A DNA stretch of 64,000 nt, from positions 1 to 64,000 of the forward strand of contig NZ_JAUOPE010000018.1 of the NCBI RefSeq assembly GCF_030546755.1. Reading direction: 5' to 3'. The position numbers were made by a program, and so were the translations under genes. Shown here in pieces: positions 57,035 to 60,940 of this stretch; the stretch's first letter is position 1, and each line of letters starts with the position of its first letter. The stretch comes from Colwellia sp. 1_MG-2023. GTDB taxonomy: Bacteria > Pseudomonadota > Gammaproteobacteria > Enterobacterales > Alteromonadaceae. The notes under the pieces are model-generated. The model worked only from the letters and a program-made list of their open reading frames with translations. It was not told where the DNA came from and searched no databases.

Positions 57035-57060
57035 CTAAAACTTATTCTTTAATCAAAACA

Positions 57061-57101
57061 AAAAACCAGTGCTCGTCCGGGCTATTGAGTCAAATCGGAG
57101 C
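57061..57101 (+). repeat. 3'-end repeat element, plus-strand copy
   Basis: Starts AAAAACCAGTG and contains the core CCGGGCTATTGAGTCAA, followed by a TCGGAGC. It lies just after fkpA and directly before its terminator. An inverted copy with the same core is at 60874-60917. Confidence 0.75.
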
Positions 57102-57129
57102 TACTATTTTTTGATAGTGGCTCTTTTTT
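57098..57129 (+). terminator. Terminator of fkpA
   Basis: A 10-bp stem GAGCTACTAT/ATAGTGGCTC (one G-T pair) and TTTTTT. Confidence 0.85.
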
Positions 57130-57253
57130 ATTATATCCAACTGAAAAATAACGATTAAAGTCCTGATACATGTAAGCCGCTACCGTTTAACTAATCAATA
57201 ATAATGTACGATTAGCCTAATTTTTCAATGAGTTATATAAAATTAGCTAAAAC

Positions 57254-57277
57254 CTCCTATAATACTAGCTATAGGAG
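57254..57277 (+). promoter_or_regulatory. Hairpin over the ribosome site of the exonuclease-fusion gene
   Basis: CTCCTATA (57254-57261) pairs perfectly with TATAGGAG (57270-57277), leaving an 8-base loop. The GGAG arm is the only well-spaced ribosome site (8 bases before the ATG at 57286). So the fold would block translation, or the DNA palindrome could be an operator. TATAAT lies within it (57258-57263). Confidence 0.55.
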
Positions 57278-57285
57278 TGGGAGTC

Positions 57286-59817
57286 ATGACGAAATATGTA
57301 TTCTTAGATACGGAAACAACCGGGTTAGATCCCCATAAAGGCAACCATCGAATTATCGATGTAGCGTGCATAGAATATGAAAACTCTGCCCCAACAGGGA
57401 ATGTATTTAAACTCAATATTAATCCTGAAGGCAAAAAGTCTAACAAGGGGGCTTTTCTAGTTCACGGAATCTTAGATGAAGAATTAGTCGGCTTACCTAC
57501 TTTTAAAGATATCCATGAACAATTCATATCTTTCATCAAAGATTGTCATCTTGTTATCTTCAACGCGGCCTTTGACTTAAAATTTTTAAATGCTGAGCTA
57601 AACCGTCTTAATTTCCCATCTACTGTATCTGATATTTGTGCTGAAGTGACTTGTGCGATGGAACTTGCTAAGTCAAAGTTTGGCGTTAGAAAGATTAGCC
57701 AAGATGCGGCCTGTCTTCGATATGGCATTGATATTTCTGCTCGTACTACTCATAGTGCTGAATTAGACGCTTCCCTTTGCGCTCAACTGTTTTTTAAACT
57801 CCTTGATGATACAGTGGAGCCGTTAAAGTCAACACCGCAACAGAACCAGCATACACCTACCAAAGCGATATCCATACCTAGATCTTATAAAAACAAAGAG
57901 ACAGGTTTATATACTCAGCTTAATTTTTGTAAAAATCCAGAGTGTAATAATTTCGGTGTTGTTGCTAAGAATGCGACTTACAAAGTTAATGGTGAACTCA
58001 ACCGAGGTTTAGGTAATGAATACAAACTAACGTGGAGTGATGATAAGTCTGAGCGAATGCTTACCTGTAAGCTTTGTGGTCACAGTACAACCATGATTCA
58101 CAACCGTTGCTTTGAGCTTGAGGTTAATCGCCTATCAACCGTATACCAACATGTAGAGCCGACTTGTCCTAATAAAGCCATTCCAGCAGACCCTAAAAGC
58201 TTTAGATATTATTACATCCCTCACTCACCTGAACAAAGACGAGGAACAAAAGTTCAAAAGCCCAGATGTAAAAATAGCAATAAAGGCATTTATTCTCATC
58301 CTGAGTTGTATAAATTGGATGGCAAAACACAGCCTAACAAATACATTGGACACACGGTGATAAAACCACTAAAAAAAGGTGGTAAGCCTGTAAAGCAAAT
58401 GGTTGTTGAAGAAAGACTGGCCTCACAAAATATTACCTGCCTCGCGTGTGGCTCAAAGTTTGCAGTTAAACAAAACCCGGCAAATAGACATTATCGAGAT
58501 TTAGAGAACGTCACACTGTTTAAAGATTTGATGAACAAAGACATCATTAATCGCATGATGGATAAACACAATCTTGGTGCAAAAGTCATCTATGACAAAA
58601 TAAACTTTTTCTATGAACAAGCATTAGCCTTTGACCATTATCACTCAGAGCTACTAGAACACGCAGTTGCCAGAAGAGAGCTTAACTTAAGTACGGATAG
58701 ACAGTTTTATTTAAGCAACTGGGGCGACCATGATATGCCCAAGCCAACGCCCATAGTAAATACCTCTAGCGTAGATAATGAGTCTGGCTTTGTTTTTGTC
58801 TCTAACGTCAACTTCGATTTCATCAGTGATTTCAAAGAAATCAATAAAGAGCATCGAGAAAAGAAAGAGCAGGAAAAATTCCCTTACTACAGACGCTATG
58901 CGCAATATGTACTAAGTAATGACGAAGTGAACGTACAAGCACCAGAAGCAGAGCGAACTGTTGAACTCCAAATGCCACCAAAGGGTTTGCTGGTCCAACA
59001 AACGTATAGTGTGCTGGCCCATTTTGCACTTCTGAAAGAAAAGTTAAAGTACTGCCCTCGTATTCGCTTATATGCGGATAACGATTCTGGCATCAAGCTA
59101 GCAATCGGAGCAATATTTCCTGATTGGATAGCAAATGAAACGCTGTATGCGTTTCAAATTTCCGCTGATAAAGCGGGTAGCGCTCAATACCTTGATGAAA
59201 CAACAACTGAACATTTAAATAAAGTCGAAGCAGAGCTAATTAAAGAGTACCCAGATATCAGCAAAGCTGAGATTAAAGCGCGATTATGGCAAGAGCAATT
59301 GGCAAATCGAATGCGAGTGGGAAATGCAAAATCAGAATGGATCATTAGTCCCAATAAAGAGTCACGCTTAGGAATGTTGCTTCCTCTTGGTGATGTAAAA
59401 AATATGAATCAGTACCAAGTGATTAAGTCATTAACGAATGCATCACTTCATGGGGTAGATAACTGGTTTCAAATCTTAAGACGACACGTTAACTTCTTAG
59501 AGCGACCCGTGACCAGCGCTACCAATTCAAAACGCTGGAATGCTTATGCAGGCTACAATCCTGAATGGATGGTAAAACTCATTGAAATCAAGCGCGTCTA
59601 TTTTAATTATTGCATGACTAATGAGCGCACCATTAATAGAAATTTCAAAGGCAATAACAAACCAAAGCCATCTACTCCTGCTATGAGATTAGGCTTAACA
59701 AGAAAGTTATATACCGCTGAAGATTTATTATCATTTAGTCTGGATAAAGTGCGCATTGATGAAGTTTATCGCAACAAGACTGAACACAAACCAAGTTTCA
59801 TGAATAACCGATTTTAG
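57286..59817 (+). CDS. DEDDh exonuclease fused to a transposase-like, zinc-finger body
   Basis: An 843-aa protein from the ATG at 57286. Residues 1-175 form a DnaQ-type 3'-5' exonuclease with all five catalytic positions: D8 and E10 (FLDTETTGL), D97 (FNAAFD), H156 and D161 (HSAELDA). Then come paired cysteines: C215 and C220 (CKNPEC) with C261 and C264 (CKLC), and later C294, C328 and C385-C388 (CLAC), like the zinc ribbons of transposases. A helix-turn-helix-like stretch lies near 410-450. The end has RLYADNDSGIKLAIG, HVNFLERPV and STPAMRLGLTRKLYTAEDLL, which recall DDE transposases. I know no named family with this layout. The body's activity is inference. Confidence 0.7.
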   Translation: MTKYVFLDTETTGLDPHKGNHRIIDVACIEYENSAPTGNVFKLNINPEGKKSNKGAFLVHGILDEELVGLPTFKDIHEQFISFIKDCHLVIFNAAFDLKFLNAELNRLNFPSTVSDICAEVTCAMELAKSKFGVRKISQDAACLRYGIDISARTTHSAELDASLCAQLFFKLLDDTVEPLKSTPQQNQHTPTKAISIPRSYKNKETGLYTQLNFCKNPECNNFGVVAKNATYKVNGELNRGLGNEYKLTWSDDKSERMLTCKLCGHSTTMIHNRCFELEVNRLSTVYQHVEPTCPNKAIPADPKSFRYYYIPHSPEQRRGTKVQKPRCKNSNKGIYSHPELYKLDGKTQPNKYIGHTVIKPLKKGGKPVKQMVVEERLASQNITCLACGSKFAVKQNPANRHYRDLENVTLFKDLMNKDIINRMMDKHNLGAKVIYDKINFFYEQALAFDHYHSELLEHAVARRELNLSTDRQFYLSNWGDHDMPKPTPIVNTSSVDNESGFVFVSNVNFDFISDFKEINKEHREKKEQEKFPYYRRYAQYVLSNDEVNVQAPEAERTVELQMPPKGLLVQQTYSVLAHFALLKEKLKYCPRIRLYADNDSGIKLAIGAIFPDWIANETLYAFQISADKAGSAQYLDETTTEHLNKVEAELIKEYPDISKAEIKARLWQEQLANRMRVGNAKSEWIISPNKESRLGMLLPLGDVKNMNQYQVIKSLTNASLHGVDNWFQILRRHVNFLERPVTSATNSKRWNAYAGYNPEWMVKLIEIKRVYFNYCMTNERTINRNFKGNNKPKPSTPAMRLGLTRKLYTAEDLLSFSLDKVRIDEVYRNKTEHKPSFMNNRF

Positions 59818-59896
59818 TGTCAGGTTATTTTACAAAGGTGCGAGTCTTAAATCATACAAATCTGCTAACCTGCTGTTTTTTTGTAAGTTACCTGAT

Positions 59897-59913
59897 TGGC
59901 ATAGTGCTTGCTT
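59897..59913 (+). promoter_or_regulatory. Sigma-54 promoter of the PEP-CTERM gene
   Basis: TGGCATAGTGCTTGCTT fits TGGCAyr-N4-TTGCw with GG and GC exactly 10 bases apart. It predicts a start near 59923 and a 70-base leader. PEP-CTERM genes in other bacteria are known to use RpoN with the PrsK/PrsR system. Confidence 0.72.
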
Positions 59914-59992
59914 AGTACCCAATAAGTATTTATTTTTAGCTTTATTAAATACCTTCCAACCTCGATGGAAAGGGATTAAAAGGATAACTCAA

Positions 59993-60622
59993 ATGAAGAA
60001 TAAATTTTTAAACGGCTTAGTTGCAAGCTTTGCTTTGGTTGTTAGTGGTGTAGCTAACGCTGGTTTGATCGAGTTTACAGACTTTAGTGACTGGGAGATA
60101 AATAGCGAAAATATCACAACCATAGATTTTAATGGCAGCCAAGGCCAGACTGGTGAAATTTATAGAGGTTCTTCTTTCTTTATTGATGGTGTTACTTTTA
60201 ATGCTGGGGGCATTTATAGTATCTATGATGTAGCTCATGATGCAGCATTTCATGATACTGGATGGCTAGATCTTCAAGCTGGAAATTATATGGCTACATT
60301 TTCACAAGCTATAACGTCATTGAGTTTTGATTTTGGCGACTTTTACAGTAATGCGATGAATTTAACTGTGACTACAAATACAGGCGAAATTATTCAAGGC
60401 AGTTCGTTGGCAAATTCATATGGCTTTATCGGTTTCACCACAGATTCCGCCTTTACATCGGTGTCTTTTCAAACCACAGGTACAACTGGACCTTACTGGG
60501 GATTTGACAATTTATCATATGGTAATGCTAAGTTAAGTGAAGTACCAGAGCCTTCTACACTAGCTGTTTTTGCTTTGGGCTTAATGGGATTAGCTTCTCG
60601 TAAGTTTAAAAAGCAAGCTTAA
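59993..60622 (+). CDS. PEP-CTERM sorting-domain exported protein
   Basis: A 209-aa protein with a signal peptide (ASFALVVSGVANA, cut near residue 23), a beta-rich middle of about 150 residues with few charges, and a C-terminal sorting signal. The signal consists of VPEPSTLAVFALGLMGLASR and KFKKQA: PEP motif, membrane helix and basic end. Exosortase (EpsH type) cuts this signal during export, usually with surface polysaccharide. No exosortase is in the window. The middle domain is not recognised. A terminator follows. Confidence 0.88.
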   Translation: MKNKFLNGLVASFALVVSGVANAGLIEFTDFSDWEINSENITTIDFNGSQGQTGEIYRGSSFFIDGVTFNAGGIYSIYDVAHDAAFHDTGWLDLQAGNYMATFSQAITSLSFDFGDFYSNAMNLTVTTNTGEIIQGSSLANSYGFIGFTTDSAFTSVSFQTTGTTGPYWGFDNLSYGNAKLSEVPEPSTLAVFALGLMGLASRKFKKQA

Positions 60623-60643
60623 TTTACAAGAGTAAACGAGTTG

Positions 60644-60675
60644 AAACACTGATCATAGTGGTCAGTGTTTTTTTG
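60644..60675 (+). terminator. Terminator of the PEP-CTERM gene
   Basis: AAACACTGATC, short loop, GGTCAGTGTTT and more T. Confidence 0.85.
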
Positions 60676-60843
60676 TTTTTAGATTTATGAAATCGGGCAA
60701 ATTACAGTATTGCCTATCTAAATCTTTGTGATTCATTTATTAACTATTTGAAAAACTTAACTAAACGTACATTTCTAGGCTTTTTAAAGGTATTCTGAAA
60801 ATTTACTTTTTATTGAAAAATATAGGAAATTTCTTGAGAAAAC

Positions 60844-60874
60844 AAAAAACCGCTTTGTTATTTCAACAAAACGG
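60844..60874 (-). terminator. Terminator of the S1/P1 nuclease gene
   Basis: On the minus strand CCGTTTTGTT, loop, AACAAAGCGG and six T. It is about 70 bases after the nuclease stop. I see no feature in 60676-60843. Confidence 0.75.
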
Positions 60875-60917
60875 CTCCGAGTTGACTCAATAGCCCGGTG
60901 CTCGTCACTGGTTTTTT
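60874..60917 (-). repeat. 3'-end repeat element, minus-strand copy
   Basis: On the minus strand it reads AAAAACCAGTGACGAGCA, then CCGGGCTATTGAGTCAA and CTCGGAGC, sharing the core of 57061-57101. Like that copy it lies between a gene end and its terminator. Confidence 0.75.
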
Positions 60918-60940
60918 TATATCAGATAAATAGTGAGGGT

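Follow-up and report, generated by a model that had tools for sequence, protein, structure and literature searches.

What might a DnaQ-like exonuclease be doing at the head of a transposase? The question is raised by one gene in the window, by which we mean the whole 64,000-nucleotide stretch of DNA analysed here, from Colwellia sp. 1_MG-2023 (contig NZ_JAUOPE010000018.1). An earlier note, made from the letters alone, had left two options for its product, possibly a new type of self-processing transposase or a domesticated defence or repair protein, and had seen neither the insertion into terminators nor the exchangeable cargo described below. From comparisons of sequences and insertion sites, we concluded with little doubt that the gene belongs to a DDE transposon which has an exonuclease-fused transposase and targets transcription terminators (Table 1).

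Table 1. Positions in the window of the element, its genes and its insertion site
Feature	Position	Strand	Basis
Left half of split host terminator, AAAAAACCAGTGCTCGTC	57060-57077		flank sequence
Left 9-bp target duplication, GTGCTCGTC	57069-57077		direct repeat
Whole transposon, 3,820 bp	57078-60897		inverted repeats and exact 9-bp duplication; two congeners empty
Left terminal inverted repeat, CGGGCTATTGAGTCAA...	57078-57101	+	comparison with homologous loci
Apparent replacement terminator, left end: 12-bp hairpin and T tract, inward-reading from left flank	57097-57129	+	sequence
Fused exonuclease-transposase gene	57286-59817	+	843 aa from ATG
DnaQ-like DEDDh exonuclease domain, residues 5-169	57298-57792	+	PF00929, E 1.1e-22; catalytic residues invariant
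Zinc-ribbon region with conserved cysteine pairs, residues 211-395, then HTH-like stretch	57916-58470	+	alignment of fused homologues
Putative DDE core	58696-59490	+	conserved residues; model of equivalent part of L010
Candidate catalytic residues D471, D598, D725	58696-58698, 59077-59079, 59458-59460	+	conserved in alignments
Cargo gene, 209-aa PEP-CTERM protein	59993-60622	+	PF07589, E 5.8e-7, 29.8 bits against cut-off 20.7
Cargo, constant signal peptide	59993-60070	+	comparison of cargo genes
Cargo, variable middle	60071-60541	+	comparison of cargo genes
Cargo, constant C-terminal segment	60542-60619	+	comparison of cargo genes
Apparent terminator of cargo gene	60644-60675	+	read from sequence
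Apparent replacement terminator, right end: hairpin and T tract, inward-reading from right flank	60839-60878	-	sequence
Right terminal inverted repeat, CGGGCTATTGAGTCAA...	60874-60897	-	inverted copy of 57078-57101
Right 9-bp target duplication, GTGCTCGTC	60898-60906		direct repeat
Right half of split host terminator, duplication then ACTGG and T tract	60898-60918		flank sequence

The fused protein

The Pfam RNase_T model (PF00929) matched the window protein at 81.8 bits against a cut-off of 24 (E 1.1e-22), and the closest model for the exonuclease domain was that of proteobacterial DnaQ (E 2.2e-48). Like DnaQ, the epsilon subunit of DNA polymerase III, the domain is of the exonuclease type, with all catalytic residues. 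Unlike DnaQ, it is fused to a transposase and misses the equivalog cut-offs (164.9 against 196 and 161.9 against 222.7), and its match to the DnaQ models stops near residue 204, leaving their C-terminal part uncovered. In the exonuclease tree the fused domains also formed a clade separate from 25 host DnaQ-type proteins, with support of 100/99. The five exonuclease residues listed in the earlier note (D8, E10, D97, H156, and D161) are exactly as written there and are invariant across 13 fused homologues sharing 30-83% identity with the window protein. Such invariance in all 13 fused homologues, even at 30% identity, means that the fusion did not arise by faulty assembly and that its exonuclease domain has not decayed; 3'-5' exonuclease activity of the DEDDh type is predicted for it. 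The view that a DEDDh exonuclease and a DDE-type transposase in one polypeptide make an unusual layout held up as well, and the homologues have the same layout. The reading frame is likewise open from an alternative GTG start at 57277.

For the body of the protein there was no Pfam match above cut-off, and a PDB sequence profile returned zinc fingers only. Eight body cysteines (C215, C220, C261, C264, C294, C328, C385, and C388) are invariant in the 13 fused homologues, and the zinc/HTH region of non-fused relatives gave a weak match to the transposase family phrog_1191. The DDE-transposase-like C-terminus recognised at the outset is conserved throughout the whole family. An aspartate near YADND, followed by a second aspartate and a glutamate, had been expected of the catalytic core; D598 agrees with the core as predicted, but the fused branch has an aspartate (D725, in GVD) as its third acidic residue and not a glutamate, and in the alignment this third candidate position is N in Tn7491, a relative discussed below. 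Our model of the window protein body was poor (pLDDT 42), since few sequences were usable in the alignment. The core of a relative (L010) was modelled with a pTM of 0.53 and a mean pLDDT of 55.6. Foldseek alone returned nothing significant for this core model, and VIA-align ranked integrases and Tn5 first at that pTM of 0.53, with HIV integrase at Z 9.2 (rmsd 3.0 over 138 residues) and Tn5 transposase at Z 8.9. The body thus has a candidate D-D-D motif by alignment, and the modelling suggests, with modest confidence, that the core of the relative resembles those of integrases and Tn5.

Limits and mobility of the element

Comparison with five homologous loci set the left limit of the element, with DNA identity beginning at 57078, or 18 bp earlier in one locus (L006). 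Terminal inverted repeats, which the earlier note had not seen directly around the gene, are present at both ends. The left one begins 208 bp ahead of the start codon, the right one ends 1.08 kb downstream of the stop codon, past the passenger gene, and they are flanked by a 9-bp direct repeat, GTGCTCGTC, that is an exact duplication. Two genes only are enclosed, those for the fused transposase and the PEP-CTERM protein. In two congeners (L259 and L261) the site is empty, with the same neighbouring sequences and an intact terminator of the same kind, and relatives of the window element occupy other, unrelated terminators; the empty site and the relatives at unrelated sites together imply past movement of the element. 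A comparison of homologue flanks had been proposed in the earlier note as a test of mobility, and the inverted repeats, 9-bp duplications, and unrelated sites that it yielded point the same way. The genome of the window (G000) holds a single full-length fused copy and, on contig C1, a decayed second copy that has a right end and a PEP-CTERM gene of its own.

Insertion into terminators

When the flanks of the element were joined minus one 9-bp repeat, they gave AAAAAACCAGTGCTCGTCACTGGTTTTTTT, a Rho-independent terminator with the insertion point in its loop. We extended the comparison to 27 complete elements, which take in two Tn7491 copies at different sites. All 27 have inverted repeats and 25 have an exact 9-bp duplication, and a terminator loop lies within 1.5 nt of the centre of the duplication in 24 of the 27, as against 1.1% of 20,800 random flank positions. 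Terminators were unclear at two of the 27 sites (L128 and L296). We tested 20 sites for neighbouring genes: in 19, at least one side has a gene-sized open frame whose end is no more than 200 nt away, and 10 of the 20 lie between convergent frames. The preference is weaker in Tn7491 than in its relatives, with clear terminators at 5 of about 9 distinct sites. On plasmids of Gram-positive bacteria, Tn7491 with dfrG occupies the loop of a clear terminator at five or more distinct sites (L129, L299, L300, L304, and L305).

An inward-reading terminator (hairpin and T tract) lies immediately internal to the inverted repeat at 35 of 44 element ends, compared with 3.7% of random stretches, and its orientation is such that it would halt transcription coming from outside. 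The stem sequences of these end terminators vary between ends and between elements, so their structure seems to be the conserved property. Because 35 of the 44 ends have an inward-reading terminator of their own, the split terminator appears to be replaced, the element apparently breaking one terminator and supplying two.

Relatives and cargo

In the body tree the fused proteins made up one group, counting as fused the protein of G228, which is split over two contigs (L113 and L123), and on the simplest reading of the trees the DnaQ-like domain was probably gained once. Apart from the dfrG element, scans of viral_contigs found no relatives of the body, the remaining matches being to DnaQ-like exonucleases only; a phage origin was rejected on the ground that body relatives there were limited to the dfrG element. 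Ends were sought for L126, L127, L111, L292, and L295, and none was clearly defined. Eight genomes of a single other genus (g35) have shorter relatives, about 493-526 aa long (L297 in G065:C2, and L277-L284).

Eight elements of the window's subgroup carry PEP-CTERM cargo (the window element, L007, L009, L101, L102, L114, L121, and L122). Among these the upstream DNA, the signal-peptide segment, and the C-terminal segment of the cargo gene have mean DNA identities of 80-82%; the middles have 48% identity against 45% when shuffled, with no significant blastp similarity. In a tblastn search for the origin of the middles (E 1e-4) against the PEP-CTERM loci in hand, each middle matched only itself. 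At full length, the window cargo shares 34% identity with a PEP-CTERM protein encoded on the chromosome. The PEP-CTERM cargo is possibly a payload-swapping surface-protein cassette. An exosortase is encoded in all six genomes that hold the eight elements, G000 included, and a search for one in P. luteoviolacea (G345), whose element carries another gene, gave no match, a single negative. One genome (G031) holds two PEP-CTERM elements with different middles.

The passenger load of relatives is one or a few genes. PADLOC assigned the cargo of L099 to Septu PtuA/PtuB (E 1.8e-152 and 7.1e-63), that of L100 to Gabija GajA/GajB (E 4.6e-213 and 1.6e-163), and that of L103 to a type IV retron reverse transcriptase with a 2TM partner (E 1.4e-139 and 3.6e-46), together with type III restriction-modification in L010 and type II restriction-modification with a NotI-like nuclease in L108. 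L115 (G000:C30:165000-180000) is a non-fused distant relative with Tmn-type defence cargo (E 8.2e-73); its transposase is frameshifted or broken by a stop, and its ends are intact and lie within a terminator. L128 and L129 are Tn7491 with dfrG. The cargo of L118 (G413:C33, 4831-6489) is a protein of serine beta-lactamase fold (PF00144, E 1.7e-56), a match that does not imply resistance. L126 (8920-17321), on a Polaromonas plasmid, has a non-fused relative; next to it come an AAA-domain protein, an HNH endonuclease, and more genes, an arrangement like that of a defence cassette.

Comparison with known systems

Tn7491 is a dfrG trimethoprim-resistance transposon with published perfect inverted repeats and a 9-bp duplication, in a paper that does not mention terminators (PMC10763498). 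It is hosted by staphylococci, enterococci, and Listeria, with a transposase annotated 'insertion element protein', to which the window protein aligned by tblastn with an E of about 1e-20 over 75% of the query. Like the window element, Tn7491 has a homologous one-protein transposase, matched ends, a 9-bp duplication, and one small cargo gene; unlike it, Tn7491 has no exonuclease domain and a looser terminator preference, and identity is about 24%. A 9-bp duplication is usual in IS1, and IS1 resembles the window protein in having a zinc-ribbon and HTH ahead of the catalytic core; the Tn7491 protein is labelled 'transpos_IS1 superfamily' in a phage record. IS1 transposase models gave no match to 18 family members, among which there were weak InsA zinc-ribbon matches only (best E 0.026). 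In contrast to IS1, the window family has one long protein, elements of 2-8 kb with cargo, the exonuclease fusion, and terminator targeting.

Tn7 uses one site beside glmS, chosen by TnsD binding the gene, and has several Tns proteins and a 5-bp duplication. It is like the window element in carrying cargo and in terminator insertion after a gene, entering at attTn7 the transcription terminator just after glmS, according to Gay et al. (1986) as cited in PMC2918618. No TnsA, TnsB, or TnsC gene was found in the window element, whose genes are those for the fused transposase and the cargo protein alone. Intrinsic transcription terminator motifs are also the insertion sites of group IIC introns (PMC4424553), which insert after the terminator and not in its loop by the title of Robart 2007. 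Unlike the window element, in which there is no reverse transcriptase gene, they are retroelements with a ribozyme and a reverse transcriptase and without inverted repeats or a duplication. In the literature searched, with preprints and most subscription papers outside its scope, there was no description of terminator targeting by this family or of its replacement terminators, and nothing relevant on a DnaQ-transposase fusion, PEP-CTERM cargo, or terminator-targeting DDE transposons. Within that literature, Tn7491 as a family member and the use of terminators by Tn7 and group IIC introns through other means were known already.

Proposed mechanism and alternatives

We propose that the zinc-ribbon/HTH region of the transposase would bind the element ends and that the D-D-D RNase H-like core would join them to target DNA with a 9-nt stagger. 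The target may be recognised by its structure (a palindrome, an extruded or single-stranded hairpin, A/T tracts) and not by its sequence. Insertion would be nearly neutral, since the site lies directly behind genes and both ends would restore termination. The exonuclease is dispensable for terminator targeting and for the 9-bp duplication, since non-fused relatives do both; the role that we tentatively favour is one in the same reaction, where it might trim the 3' ends of the donor or of the hairpin target. Our working proposal, possible though short of probable, is that the fused DEDDh exonuclease is a functional part of transposition, in which hairpins are recognised by structure and a built-in nuclease processes 3' ends.

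In a main rival account, the exonuclease would tether the transposase to the replication fork or Pol III. Terminator DNA on the lagging strand is single-stranded there and forms a hairpin, which would make target choice dependent on replication. The domain is indeed closest to the Pol III epsilon subunit, and beta-clamp contacts occur in many transposases (PMC5371812). Yet the fused proteins have no conserved clamp-binding motif, the match to the DnaQ models runs only to about residue 204 and misses their C-terminal part, and non-fused members, which lack the exonuclease, target terminators; we regard such tethering as unlikely. Unlikely, too, is a passenger function (for instance the destruction of phage or competitor DNA, or the trimming of cargo ends) that was fused for co-mobility and has no role in transposition: DEDDh nucleases do occur in defence systems, as the PADLOC DEDDh and PDC-S48 matches illustrate, and defence genes are frequent as family cargo, yet in the fused clade the exonuclease always forms part of the transposase polypeptide and nowhere stands as a cargo gene of its own, and it has persisted across deep divergence during which the cargo changed.

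Terminators might also not be targeted at all, with insertion being random and survivors selected between genes or in terminators. An insertion directly 3' of a gene does the least harm, but the loss of harmful insertions would not place the middle of the 9-bp duplication within 1.5 nt of a hairpin loop in 24 of 27 elements, which makes this account very unlikely. Still harder to credit is that the window protein is a repair or defence protein domesticated from a transposase, the second option of the earlier note. Its genome has one full-length fused copy only, but that genome also has the decayed second copy, and the element itself is intact, with inverted repeats, a 9-bp duplication, an empty congener site, and relatives elsewhere at unrelated sites with different cargo. 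We rejected the domesticated-gene reading on the empty site and the target duplication.

Significance

Transposons that enter terminators and bring their own could add genes at almost no cost to the bacterium, and small defence or resistance cargoes may spread unnoticed because the transposases are mostly annotated as hypothetical proteins. Tn7491 with dfrG is a clinical member of the family, and its site choice is now open to study. A single protein that targets DNA structure is a possible insertion tool, and the exonuclease fusion poses a testable question about how transposases process ends. Should the exonuclease process 3' ends, it would make a transposase-exonuclease enzyme of a kind undescribed in the literature searched. 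On that reading, the enzyme would belong to a family of transposons that make good the terminators they disrupt and exchange the central part of a surface-protein gene while its ends stay constant.
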